Below, piece by piece: positions 39,055 to 48,851 of a DNA stretch of 64,000 bases (its first letter is position 1; each line of letters opens with the position of its first letter). Under the pieces are notes generated by a model, which worked only from the letters and a program-made list of their open reading frames with translations, was not told where the DNA came from and made no database searches. Position numbers and translations under genes: made by a program. This DNA comes from an uncultured Alphaproteobacteria bacterium (lineage in GTDB: Bacteria > Pseudomonadota > Alphaproteobacteria > Methylaequorales > Methylaequoraceae), in contig CACEXK010000004.1 in the NCBI GenBank assembly GCA_902563505.1, positions 1-64,000 on the forward strand, written 5' to 3'.

Positions 39055-39714
39055 TTATACTTCAAGAAAATATTTATTTTTCTTTTGGATCAAAAAATCT
39101 GGCTTGCTTGGATTTTTTTCAATTTTTCTTCTTAATCTGTATATTAATGATTCTAATGTGTGTGTGTGTAATACTTTATTGTGTCCCCAAACTTTCTGCA
39201 AAATTTCATTTTTTGTTGATCCGTTTCTATTTATGATCAAAAATTTTAAAAATTTATTTTCTAATTCTGTTAAATTAATTTCAGCTTGTTTCTTTTCATC
39301 TATTAAGCTTGATCTTTTCGGATAAAAGATAAGGTTACCTATTTTTGCTAAAGGTGAAATATCTTTATTTCCATCAGCAACATGGTGAAGAATTTTAACA
39401 AAATTGCGAAATATTATAGGTAAATTAATACTATAAATTTCTTTATTTATATCTTCTAAATTTAAATCCTTTTTTGAAAATATAAGAATTTTCGCTTGAT
39501 TGTTTTTAGATTTAATTATTTTATTAATTTCATCAAGTTTATGGTCAATTGATATATCTATTAATATTATTTTTTGCTTACTGGGATATTCAGTTATCTC
39601 TCTTAAACTTTTAAAAAATTTAATATGAAATTTTTCATTTGAAATTAAATTTATCAATTCATCCAGAAAAAAACTCTTCTTAAATATAGCTATAATATTT
39701 TTATCACTTGGCAT
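39055..39714 (-). CDS. OmpR-type winged-helix regulator with degenerate receiver domain
   Basis: The C-terminal half is a Trans_reg_C winged helix (LTELENKFLKFLIINRNGSTKNEILQKVWG; HTHTLESLIYRLRRKIE; FLIQKKNKYFLEV). The N-terminal ~115 residues look like a receiver that lost key residues. The usual N-terminal acidic pair is absent (NIIAIFKKSF), an aspartate remains in ILIDISID, and the conserved Lys-Pro is not evident (SINLPIIFRNF). No histidine kinase is adjacent. It may be phosphorylation-independent. It converges on lolA with 1 bp between and starts 12 bp from the divergent L,D-transpeptidase gene. Confidence 0.75.
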   Translation of the reverse strand: MPSDKNIIAIFKKSFFLDELINLISNEKFHIKFFKSLREITEYPSKQKIILIDISIDHKLDEINKIIKSKNNQAKILIFSKKDLNLEDINKEIYSINLPIIFRNFVKILHHVADGNKDISPLAKIGNLIFYPKRSSLIDEKKQAEINLTELENKFLKFLIINRNGSTKNEILQKVWGHNKVLHTHTLESLIYRLRRKIEKNPSKPDFLIQKKNKYFLEV

Positions 39715-46162: not shown

Positions 46163-46955
46163 ACAAATCTTGATTTGTTAATTTAATATTGAACCACAAC
46201 GAAAAAGAAATTGCTGCTTGATGAATTAACATTCCTAGCCCATTGAAAGTGCGGAATCCTTTTTTTTTAAACTCTTTAATTAATTGAGTTTCTGGTGGAT
46301 TGTAAATTATATCATATAAAATTACACTTGCGTTTAACATTCCTTTATTAACTTTTAAACATTCAGACTTTTTCATTCCATATGATGAAGTGTTCACAAT
46401 AATATCTGTATCTTTGTCCGGTGTTGCTGTTTCCCAATCTGCCAAACTCAGTGAGACTTTGTTATTTGCAAATTTGGTTATTATTTCTTTCGCGTTGCTT
46501 TCTGTTCTATTCAAAATTTGTACTTTATTTACTTTCTGCGAAATTAATTCGGCCAATATTCCTTGAGCTGCTCCGCCGGCTCCTATCAAAAAAATGTTTT
46601 TACCTCGAACTTTGATTTTAGCTTCTTCTGATAATGAATTTATGAAACCTTTACCATCTGTGTTTTCACCAACTATTTTTTTATTTTTTTGATAAATTGT
46701 ATTTATTGCGTTACTCTTCAAAGCAACTGGCGTGAGACTATCTACTAGTTCAAATATTTTGTTTTTATAAGGTAAAGTTATATTAAGCCCTTTTATTTCT
46801 TTTTTTCTAACTTGCTCAATAATTGTATTTAAATCTGCCTCTTCAATCTCTTTTTTTAAATATTTATTATTTAGATTATATTTTTTTATCCAATGATTAT
46901 GAATTAAAGGTGATAATGAGTGTTTTATTGGTTTTCCTATTACTAAAAGATTCAT
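46128..46955 (-). CDS. aroE: Shikimate dehydrogenase
   Basis: NADPH-dependent reduction of 3-dehydroshikimate in aromatic amino-acid synthesis. The substrate domain has GKPIKHSLSPLIHNHWI and GLNITLPYKNKIFEL (catalytic Lys). The Rossmann domain has FLIGAGGAAQGILAEL and NRTESNAKEI, with the C-terminal GLGMLIHQAAISFSLWF. Length 275. It overlaps maf by 4 bp and coaE downstream. Confidence 0.96.
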   Translation of the reverse strand: MNLLVIGKPIKHSLSPLIHNHWIKKYNLNNKYLKKEIEEADLNTIIEQVRKKEIKGLNITLPYKNKIFELVDSLTPVALKSNAINTIYQKNKKIVGENTDGKGFINSLSEEAKIKVRGKNIFLIGAGGAAQGILAELISQKVNKVQILNRTESNAKEIITKFANNKVSLSLADWETATPDKDTDIIVNTSSYGMKKSECLKVNKGMLNASVILYDIIYNPPETQLIKEFKKKGFRTFNGLGMLIHQAAISFSLWFNIKLTNQDLYEARKLCEKKI

Positions 46956-47578
46956 ATCTTTTTGTTTCCTAGTTGAGTTAAAAAATTATTCAATGGGAAG
47001 CCAGTTATTGTTTCTAGGTCGCCGCTTATCACTTGCATAAAATTATATTTATAATTATCTTCGATTTTATATGATCCCACTGAATTTAATGCTGTTTCTT
47101 TGTTTTTATATAAATACCCATTAATTTCTTTTTGACTAATTTTTTTAAAATGAATTTCTGCCATTTTTGATTCTTGAAAAAAAAGTTTTTGCTGATCAAA
47201 AACACATATAGCACTGTACAATTTATGGTTTTTTCCTGTTAGATAAGCTATGTTTCTTGCCGCTTCTTTTATATTCTTTGGTTTACTTATAACTTTCCCT
47301 CCACATTCTAAAATCTGATCTGACGCAATTATAATTTGATTAGGAAAATCATTTTTTATTGATTCTACCTTTTTCCTTGCTAATATTTCCGCCTGTTTTC
47401 TGGCTGACTTTTTTTTGTTTTTTTGTTTTTCGCTTTCTTCGTCAATTTTATGCTTTACGGTCTTTATGTTCTGAAATATCTCCATAGCTATTCTAATTCT
47501 TGTCTGACTGGACGATGCTAGAACAAACTGTTGGCTCTTTGTTATTAACTTTACTTTTTTGTTTTGTTGCAATTCCAT
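46952..47578 (-). CDS. maf: Maf-like nucleotide pyrophosphatase
   Basis: Hydrolyses non-canonical or modified nucleoside triphosphates such as dTTP/UTP or m7GTP. Recognisable segments: QFVLASSSQTRIRIAMEI (family SxSPRR region, here SSQTR), the KIDEESEKQ stretch, IIASDQILECGGKVISKPKNIKEAARNIAYLTGKNHKLYSAI, and the C-terminal GSYKIEDNYKYNFMQVISGDLETITGFPL. Length 208. It is the first gene left of the candidate origin and transcribed away from it. Confidence 0.92.
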   Translation of the reverse strand: MELQQNKKVKLITKSQQFVLASSSQTRIRIAMEIFQNIKTVKHKIDEESEKQKNKKKSARKQAEILARKKVESIKNDFPNQIIIASDQILECGGKVISKPKNIKEAARNIAYLTGKNHKLYSAICVFDQQKLFFQESKMAEIHFKKISQKEINGYLYKNKETALNSVGSYKIEDNYKYNFMQVISGDLETITGFPLNNFLTQLGNKKI

Positions 47579-47834
47579 ACACTTTTTTCTAACTATTTTT
47601 TCAACATGTTAAATATGTCTATTTTTTTCTTAACAAATTTATCCTCGTTACTCGATACTTTTTTTTCCACAAATATTGTATTTTTTTTAAGCTGTTCATT
47701 AAATTACTCACAAGTTTTACACAATTTTACGTTTTAATAAACTGTTGGCAAAATGTTAGTATTTAGTTACAAACATAATTAAGCTTACAACAACTACAAC
47801 AACCTTTATATATATATATAGTAATAGTAGAATT
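47579..47834. other. Candidate chromosomal replication origin (oriC) beside hemE
   Basis: A 256-bp, very AT-rich divergent gap between maf-aroE-coaE and hemE-hemH-hemJ-rho. Four DnaA-box-like 9-mers lie in the same orientation: TTATCCTCG (47639, 7/9 to TTATNCACA), TTTTCCACA (47663, 8/9), TTACTCACA (47704, 8/9) and TTTTACACA (47715, 8/9). A (TA)n tract at 47807-47820 could be an unwinding element. In Caulobacter and Rickettsia the origin lies next to hemE. Genes on both sides run away from the gap. No canonical 9/9 box or CtrA TTAA-N7-TTAA site was found. Confidence 0.6.
47786..47803 (+). repeat. Tandem 9-bp repeat (TACAACAAC x2)
   Basis: Two exact, adjacent copies of TACAACAAC lie in the candidate origin, followed by CTT, a (TA)n tract and then TAGTAATAGTAG. 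This is the least AT-homopolymeric part of the gap. It could be a protein-binding direct repeat involved in origin opening or in hemE control. Confidence 0.6.
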
Positions 47835-48851
47835 ATGGATAAAATACATTTATCAAAAGAAAAAAAACCGCCAATTTGGTTTATGCGTCAAGCAGGACGA
47901 TATTTGCCAGAATACCAAAAAATTAGAAAGGAAAAGAAAGATTTTCTAGACCTCTGTTTTTCTCCTGATCTTGCAAGCAAAATTTCTTTTCAGCCAATTC
48001 AAAGGTTTAATTTAGATTTTATTATACTGTTTTGTGATATTCTTGTGATCCCACATTCTCTTGGGCAAAAAGTTGAATTTATTGATGGTAAAGGACCAGT
48101 GCTTGATCCAATATCTTCAATAAAGGATTTAGATTATAAGAACATGACACTGATTTTAAAAAAACTAAATCCAGTTTTTGAAACTTTAGATTGTATTTCA
48201 AAAAGGAAGAAAGATAAAAAGTTAATTGGTTTTTGTGGAGGTCCATTTACTGTTTTAAATTATATGATTGAGGGAGGCACGTCAAAAGATCATAAGAAGA
48301 TTAAAGAATTTATTAAAAATAATAGGTTGAAAGCAAAAGAAATAATAAAAGTGATAACAGATGTTTCATCGGAATATTTAAAAAAACAAATTGAGAATGG
48401 AGCAGACCTAGTTCAGATTTTTGAGTCATGGGCAAGTTTGCTGGATGGAGAAGACTTCAATGAATTCATAGTAGAACCCAATGCTAAAATAAGTAGGGAG
48501 ATAAGAGAATATTCAAGAGATGTTAAGATCATTCATTTTCCTAGAGGGTCGAAGAAAAATTTGTTGACATTTGTTAATGAAGTTGTATGTGATGTTCTAT
48601 CTTTAGATGAGAACTTTCCTAACGAAATTATGAGAATAGCAAAAAGAAAAAAAATGGTTTTACAAGGAAACTTAAGTCCACAAATACTAGTTGAAGGTGG
48701 CGAAAGATTAGAAAGGGAAGTAAAAATCATTCTGGAAAAATTTAAAAACAATAAACATATATTTAATCTTTCGCACGGCATTTTACCAACCACTCCCATT
48801 GAGAATGTAGAAAAAACAATAGAAATTGTAAGAAATTATGAAACTTCCTGA
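47835..48851 (+). CDS. hemE: Uroporphyrinogen decarboxylase
   Basis: Converts uroporphyrinogen III to coproporphyrinogen III in heme synthesis. The N-terminal signature KKPPIWFMRQAGRYLPEYQKIR and the segment FCGGPFTVLNYMIEGG are diagnostic, as are QIFESWASLL and the C-terminal NLSHGILPTTPIENVE. Length 338. It is the first gene right of the candidate origin and heads a hemE-hemH-hemJ-rho run, overlapping hemH by 14 bp. Confidence 0.97.
   Translation: MDKIHLSKEKKPPIWFMRQAGRYLPEYQKIRKEKKDFLDLCFSPDLASKISFQPIQRFNLDFIILFCDILVIPHSLGQKVEFIDGKGPVLDPISSIKDLDYKNMTLILKKLNPVFETLDCISKRKKDKKLIGFCGGPFTVLNYMIEGGTSKDHKKIKEFIKNNRLKAKEIIKVITDVSSEYLKKQIENGADLVQIFESWASLLDGEDFNEFIVEPNAKISREIREYSRDVKIIHFPRGSKKNLLTFVNEVVCDVLSLDENFPNEIMRIAKRKKMVLQGNLSPQILVEGGERLEREVKIILEKFKNNKHIFNLSHGILPTTPIENVEKTIEIVRNYETS

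Follow-up and report, generated by a model that had tools for sequence, protein, structure and literature searches.

In Caulobacter crescentus, Rickettsia and Wolbachia, the chromosomal replication origin is flanked by hemE (PMC1914354), and in Caulobacter and Rickettsia the second flank is COG1806. The opening of the duplex has been dissected in Bacillus subtilis, where the BUS, a module known from other bacteria too, consists of a DnaA box, a short spacer, a series of triplets (DnaA-trios) and AT-rich DNA, and where DnaA extends in the 3′ to 5′ direction along the strand that lies opposite the box (PMC8287927). The published search rule for trios requires a middle A; the authors of the BUS survey nevertheless suspected that there are deviant trios lacking this adenine (PMC8287927). 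In the Bacillus protein, Asn187 contacts the middle A of the trio, while Arg202 and Glu228 contact the G (PMC10721633), and changing the middle A of Bacillus trios to T impairs the origin. The unwinding element of Escherichia coli oriC is likewise an AT-rich region beside DnaA boxes, with 13-mer repeats and IHF-assisted capture.

Here we consider an uncultured alphaproteobacterium whose genome of 1.27 Mb is distributed over 24 contigs and is 87% complete. The window analysed comprises bases 1–64000 of contig C4 (83,770 bases). The closest named record is uncultured alphaproteobacterium AG-343-F10, with a hemE identity of 64%, and the order of the organism was sampled with 32 genomes from 12 genera. 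No published oriC for this lineage was found in the literature.

The maf–hemE gap as probable chromosomal origin

The gap between maf and hemE (Table 1) is very probably the chromosomal oriC of the organism, a conclusion that is well supported rather than proven. It draws on the relatives, namely on kept synteny, enrichment of DnaA boxes and GC skew, and on the proximity of parS and parAB. The sequence-only reading had described an AT-rich divergent gap of 256 bp with a (TA)n tract and had taken it for oriC by reference to the Caulobacter and Rickettsia origins beside hemE; the description holds, the precedent agrees with the literature (PMC1914354), and the reading as oriC is strengthened by what follows.

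Table 1. Positions of the features discussed (window coordinates, except where C4 is given)
Feature	Position	Strand	Remarks
Candidate oriC, maf/hemE intergenic gap	47579–47834		256 bp, 22% G+C
maf, left flank	46952–47578	−	Synteny in relatives; occupies the COG1806 position
hemE, right flank	47835–48851	+	Usual alphaproteobacterial oriC neighbour
DnaA-box-like TTATCCTCG	47639–47647	+	2 mismatches to TTATNCACA
DnaA-box-like TTTTCCACA	47663–47671	+	1 mismatch; identical 9-mer recurs in relatives
DnaA-box-like TTACTCACA	47704–47712	+	1 mismatch
DnaA-box-like TTTTACACA	47715–47723	+	1 mismatch; 11 bp from the box at 47704
Weak array-proximal box TTACAAACA	47767–47775	+	2 mismatches; 12 bp before the left array
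Left triplet array, candidate variant DnaA-trios	47788–47802	−	+ strand CAACAACTACAACAA; − strand 3′-GTT GTT GAT GTT GTT-5′
TA-rich core, proposed duplex unwinding element	47805–47818		Sequence, conservation
Right triplet array TAGTAATAGTAG	47819–47830	+	TAG TAA TAG TAG; 3′-GAT GAT AAT GAT-5′ read from the hemE side; canonical spelling
Inverted DnaA-box-like TTATCCATA	47834–47842	−	1 mismatch; overlaps the hemE start codon; 3 bp from the right array
Perfect parS in the gidB start region	C4:71815–71828		Outside the window; one of only two in the genome
Perfect parS in the gidA start region	C4:73736–73749		Outside the window; one of only two in the genome

The likeness to the hemE-flanked origins lies in the hemE neighbour, a gap that is AT-rich and a few hundred bp long, and the presence of DnaA boxes (PMC1914354). 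The gap is intergenic and adjoins hemE, as expected of a hemE-type oriC, and its A+T content is above the average of the window (22% G+C against 23–38% in 2-kb stretches of the window). The order aroE–maf–gap–hemE–hemH is kept in 28/28 relatives that have both flanks. Differences concern the other flank, which is maf, COG1806 having not been found in the 87% complete genome; the length of the gap, which is shorter; and regulatory sites. No CtrA or IHF sites were found in the gap, and in the order as a whole their counts, like those of GANTC sites, are at chance. Since CtrA sites are reported to be scarce in several Rickettsiales too, this lack is not taken to exclude an alphaproteobacterial oriC.

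GC skew was assessed on eight contigs of relatives, the organism's own genome being split into 24 contigs. In all eight, the skew is lower on the left of the gap than on the right, and the difference is significant by block permutation (P < 0.05) in four of them (G021, G028, G018 and G006). The cumulative skew minimum of G028, computed over 365 kb, falls 86 bp from the left triplet array; in the other contigs, the raw minimum lies 8 kb or more from the gap, the skew being weak in the order, so that this evidence supports an origin without pinpointing it. A closed alphaproteobacterial genome of 1.5 Mb (G189) ends its record beside hemE with CAACAACATCATAATATAATATTGATATATAGTAGTAG, and its skew, which was sampled, has a mainly positive first half and a mainly negative second half, which puts a turning point at the element. 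Moreover, parA, parB, gidB, gidA and trmE share the contig of the gap. The genome has no more than two perfect parS sites; they adjoin parA and parB, and these sites and parAB are located 22–26 kb from the gap. In Caulobacter, parAB and gidAB likewise lie near oriC.

Two further loci were recorded on the same contig, both judged by inspection. One (L080:12812-19248, that is, C4:76812-83248) is a two-partner-secretion-like pair, in which a protein resembling an outer-membrane transporter precedes a filamentous-haemagglutinin-like protein of 1543 aa; such a pair is unexpected in a 1.3-Mb genome. The other, at window positions 39055–39714, encodes a protein resembling a response regulator, with a degenerate receiver and an output domain of the winged-helix type.

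The four same-orientation boxes listed by the sequence-only reading, two of them exactly 11 bp apart, are present (three with one mismatch and one with two). The exact sequence TTATNCACA does not occur in the gap (47579–47834), and no one-mismatch box on the − strand lies wholly inside it. The AT-rich window contains 86 one-mismatch boxes against 93 expected from shuffling, so that such boxes are common and occur at the chance rate; for three on one strand of the T-rich gap, dinucleotide shuffling gives P = 0.036. The boxes of the gap are thus weak evidence by themselves. They might even be chance matches in a T-rich spacer that is not an origin at all. Conservation, synteny, skew and the proximity of parS all speak against this, making it very improbable. 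The earlier suggestion to look for conserved 9-mers in relatives that keep the maf/hemE junction proved informative, since boxes are enriched there, mostly on the + strand. Over the 230 bp that precede the left triplet array in 30 genomes of the order, boxes with at most one mismatch number 78 on the + strand, where 12.4 are expected, and 31 on the − strand. The cluster of DnaA boxes is therefore weak in the gap alone and strong across the 30 genomes. In the same stretches, TTTTNCACA occurs 24 times (2.3 expected) and TTATNCACA 10 times (0.7 expected). It had also been proposed that TTTTNCACA is a lineage-specific box. Its enrichment, about 10-fold, bears out part of the proposal, but TTATNCACA is similarly enriched and domain IV of the DnaA protein closely matches that of E. 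coli (1j1v), so that a lineage box arising from a change in DnaA is unsupported. The lineage-specific part is the triplet array rather than the TTTTNCACA box.

Another recurrent feature was seen upstream of the array. The gaps of L006–L018 contain a near-palindrome, for example GTTAATAAAGTTTATCAAC, formed 5′ of the array by two weak boxes that face each other (TTATTAACA / TTATCAAC), and GTTAATAA is present in 16/30 genomes against 0.3 expected.

The left triplet array and the TA-rich core

Neither of the two triplet arrays had been noted in the sequence-only reading. Just upstream of hemE, a run of CNA triplets followed by a TA-rich tract is found in 30/30 genomes of the order, with at least four triplets and usually five. 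The array is the best-conserved stretch of the gap, with 2.0 bits per column where the mean is 0.66, in an alignment of segments cut around the array, which favours the array's own alignment. Its 14-base core CWACWACWACWACC is single copy in the genome. Within 16 bp ahead of the array stands a box that is weak in this genome (TTACAAACA, two mismatches), and the relative L012 has a perfect TTATCCACA at that position. Other Alphaproteobacteria display, at the same place, TTATCCACA followed by a spacer, three to six CNA triplets and AT-rich DNA, as in TTATCCACAGGGATCAACAACAACTACAACCTATTTATAAATATA (L036). When the element was defined by a box of no more than two mismatches and, 0–16 bp further on, at least three CNA triplets, upstream of hemE, it was detected in 25/30 loci of the order (0.1 expected in shuffled sequence) and in 35/88 loci of the class (0.7 expected in shuffled sequence), more than half of the latter being without the full element. 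Candidate elements away from hemE were also sought in 20 genomes, most of which have none beside it; the matches examined turned out to be ferrochelatase codons (LYPQFSTTTT etc.) or other coding sequence. As a separate observation, L036–L044, which belong to several other families, carry GGGATAA, an inverted half-box TTATCCC, about 27–31 bp to the right of the array at a near-fixed distance.

Within the triplets, the variable position is the middle one. On the + strand it is A in 141, T in 5 and C in 1 of the 147 triplets of the order, and T in 76, A in 73 and C in 37 of those of the class. Read on the trio strand, the middle base is accordingly T in 141/147 triplets of the order; in the class, it can be A, T or G. 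The flanking G and T, by contrast, are preserved. For 19 box-anchored class loci, the search itself imposed the outer C and A on the first two triplets, but these bases also predominate in the later triplets.

The position of the arrays directly upstream of the hemE start (25–66 bp in the order, measured to the hemE match) invites a different reading, in which the gap is oriC but the arrays and the TA tract form the promoter and leader of hemE, the CAA run being an unstructured leader and the TA tract a −10-like box. CAA repeats do serve as unstructured leaders, and promoter-like matches are present, including one at 47805–47833. Such matches are nonetheless within chance (5 against 3.0, sd 1.9), no Rfam match was obtained, and TAGTAG, the hallmark of the right array, precedes 1/73 ORFs of the window, that of hemE alone. 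Furthermore, other orders keep the array behind a DnaA box, at distances from hemE that vary between 39 and 305 bp across the class, and this variation disfavours a leader. We regard this reading as unlikely.

A proposed variant of the DnaA-trio module

As compared with the BUS of B. subtilis (PMC8287927, PMC10721633), the left array shows the same arrangement: a box, a 12-bp spacer, five triplets of period 3, an adjoining AT-rich tract and the same polarity, with the first base of the trio, G, being kept. It departs from it in the middle base, mostly T here and A in Bacillus. Only one of the five trios (GAT, the rest being GTT) has the form 3′-NAN-5′, short of the three or more expected opposite a box, and the array is for this reason called a variant rather than a member of the DnaA-trios.

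The DnaA protein differs from its Bacillus counterpart in a corresponding place. When residues were assigned by alignment to 8btg_A, positions 187, 202 and 228 of the organism's protein were Tyr, Lys and Glu, as in 22/22 DnaA proteins of the order, whereas positions 187 and 202 are Asn and Arg in Bacillus. The Bacillus trio-capture residues Asn187, Ile190, Ile193, Arg202 and Glu228 correspond in the order to Tyr, Ile, Leu, Lys and Glu. Among 30 further proteins from the class, drawn mostly from genomes showing the box–array element, residue 187 is Tyr in 26, Phe in 3 and His in 1; Lys202 and Glu228 are each found in 30/30, and hence in all 52 proteins when the order is included. This pattern suggests that the contacts to the guanine are kept in character and that the contact to the middle base has changed. 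We propose that Tyr187 may explain the relaxed middle base, the correlation counting as one class-level event; many class genomes with Tyr187 still have 3′-GAT-5′ triplets.

On these grounds, the left array probably represents a novel form of DnaA-trio module, an estimate that covers jointly the identity of the gap as oriC and the mechanism. By analogy with the Bacillus BUS, DnaA would bind the co-oriented boxes across the left two thirds of the gap and, from the array-proximal box, a DnaA filament would extend onto the lower strand of the left array, one protomer per 3′-G(T/A)T-5′ triplet. The filament would then open the adjoining TA tract, leading to helicase loading. The relaxed middle base would follow from the alphaproteobacterial DnaA, in which Tyr, Phe or His replaces Asn187 and Lys202 and Glu228 stay. 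Taken as a whole, an origin opened by such a trio-bound filament is, in our view, the likely explanation of the locus.

Alternatively, opening may proceed as in E. coli: DnaA seated on the double-stranded boxes would recognise TTGT-type motifs and thereby capture the lower, T-rich strand (5′-TTGTTGTTGT-3′). The lower strand of pure CAA arrays is indeed an overlapping run of TTGT. In the class, by contrast, the arrays switch between CAA, CTA and CCA, which destroys TTGT, while the 3-bp period and the outer bases are kept. E. coli-type origin opening also uses IHF, sites for which are at chance here, and the locus has a triplet array in place of 13-mer repeats. Strand capture of this kind is accordingly improbable, and the trio-like filament is preferred.

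A second array facing the first

A further difference from the Bacillus BUS is that a second array, of canonical spelling, faces the first on the other strand. It satisfies the published trio rule (GAT GAT AAT GAT). To the right of the left array, TAGTAG is found in 22/29 genomes of the order against 1.4 expected; as a class-wide feature it is unsupported (3/39 outside the order, 0.8 expected). The facing inverted box, with one mismatch, is present in 18/27 genomes as compared with about 4% in shuffled tails, usually as TTATCCATA over the hemE start or as TTATTAACA slightly further in. Because the box overlaps hemE codons, coding may explain part of it; in L027, a similar box, TGTGGATTA, lies in another reading frame of hemE, which hints at selection on the DNA rather than on the codons.

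Another conceivable reading is a cruciform, extruded by the two arrays as inverted repeat arms on either side of the TA core. Some other families do have a right side that mirrors the left (CTACTACC ... GTAGGTAGTA in L048). In the order, however, CAA on the left and TAG on the right are not complementary and are both conserved nonetheless, so that a cruciform appears highly unlikely. One may speculate that a single TA core is flanked in this order by two unwinding modules that face each other, one on each strand and spelled 3′-GTT-5′ and 3′-GAT-5′; two DnaA filaments would form on them and each would serve one helicase, a doubtful but possible arrangement. A Tyr187 DnaA that reads the outer bases and not the middle one would make both spellings usable. 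In the proposed mechanism, the right canonical array may be where opening, or the loading of a helicase, starts on the hemE side, this being its least certain part.

The work on DnaA-trios left open the case of trios without a middle adenine, and the present locus, with its counterparts in the class, provides a concrete candidate that is tied to a DnaA residue. If this is true, the trio rule of Alphaproteobacteria would be 3′-GNT-5′, which would help to locate origins in fragmented genomes of uncultured organisms. The facing second array, if functional, would bear on how each strand gets its helicase.
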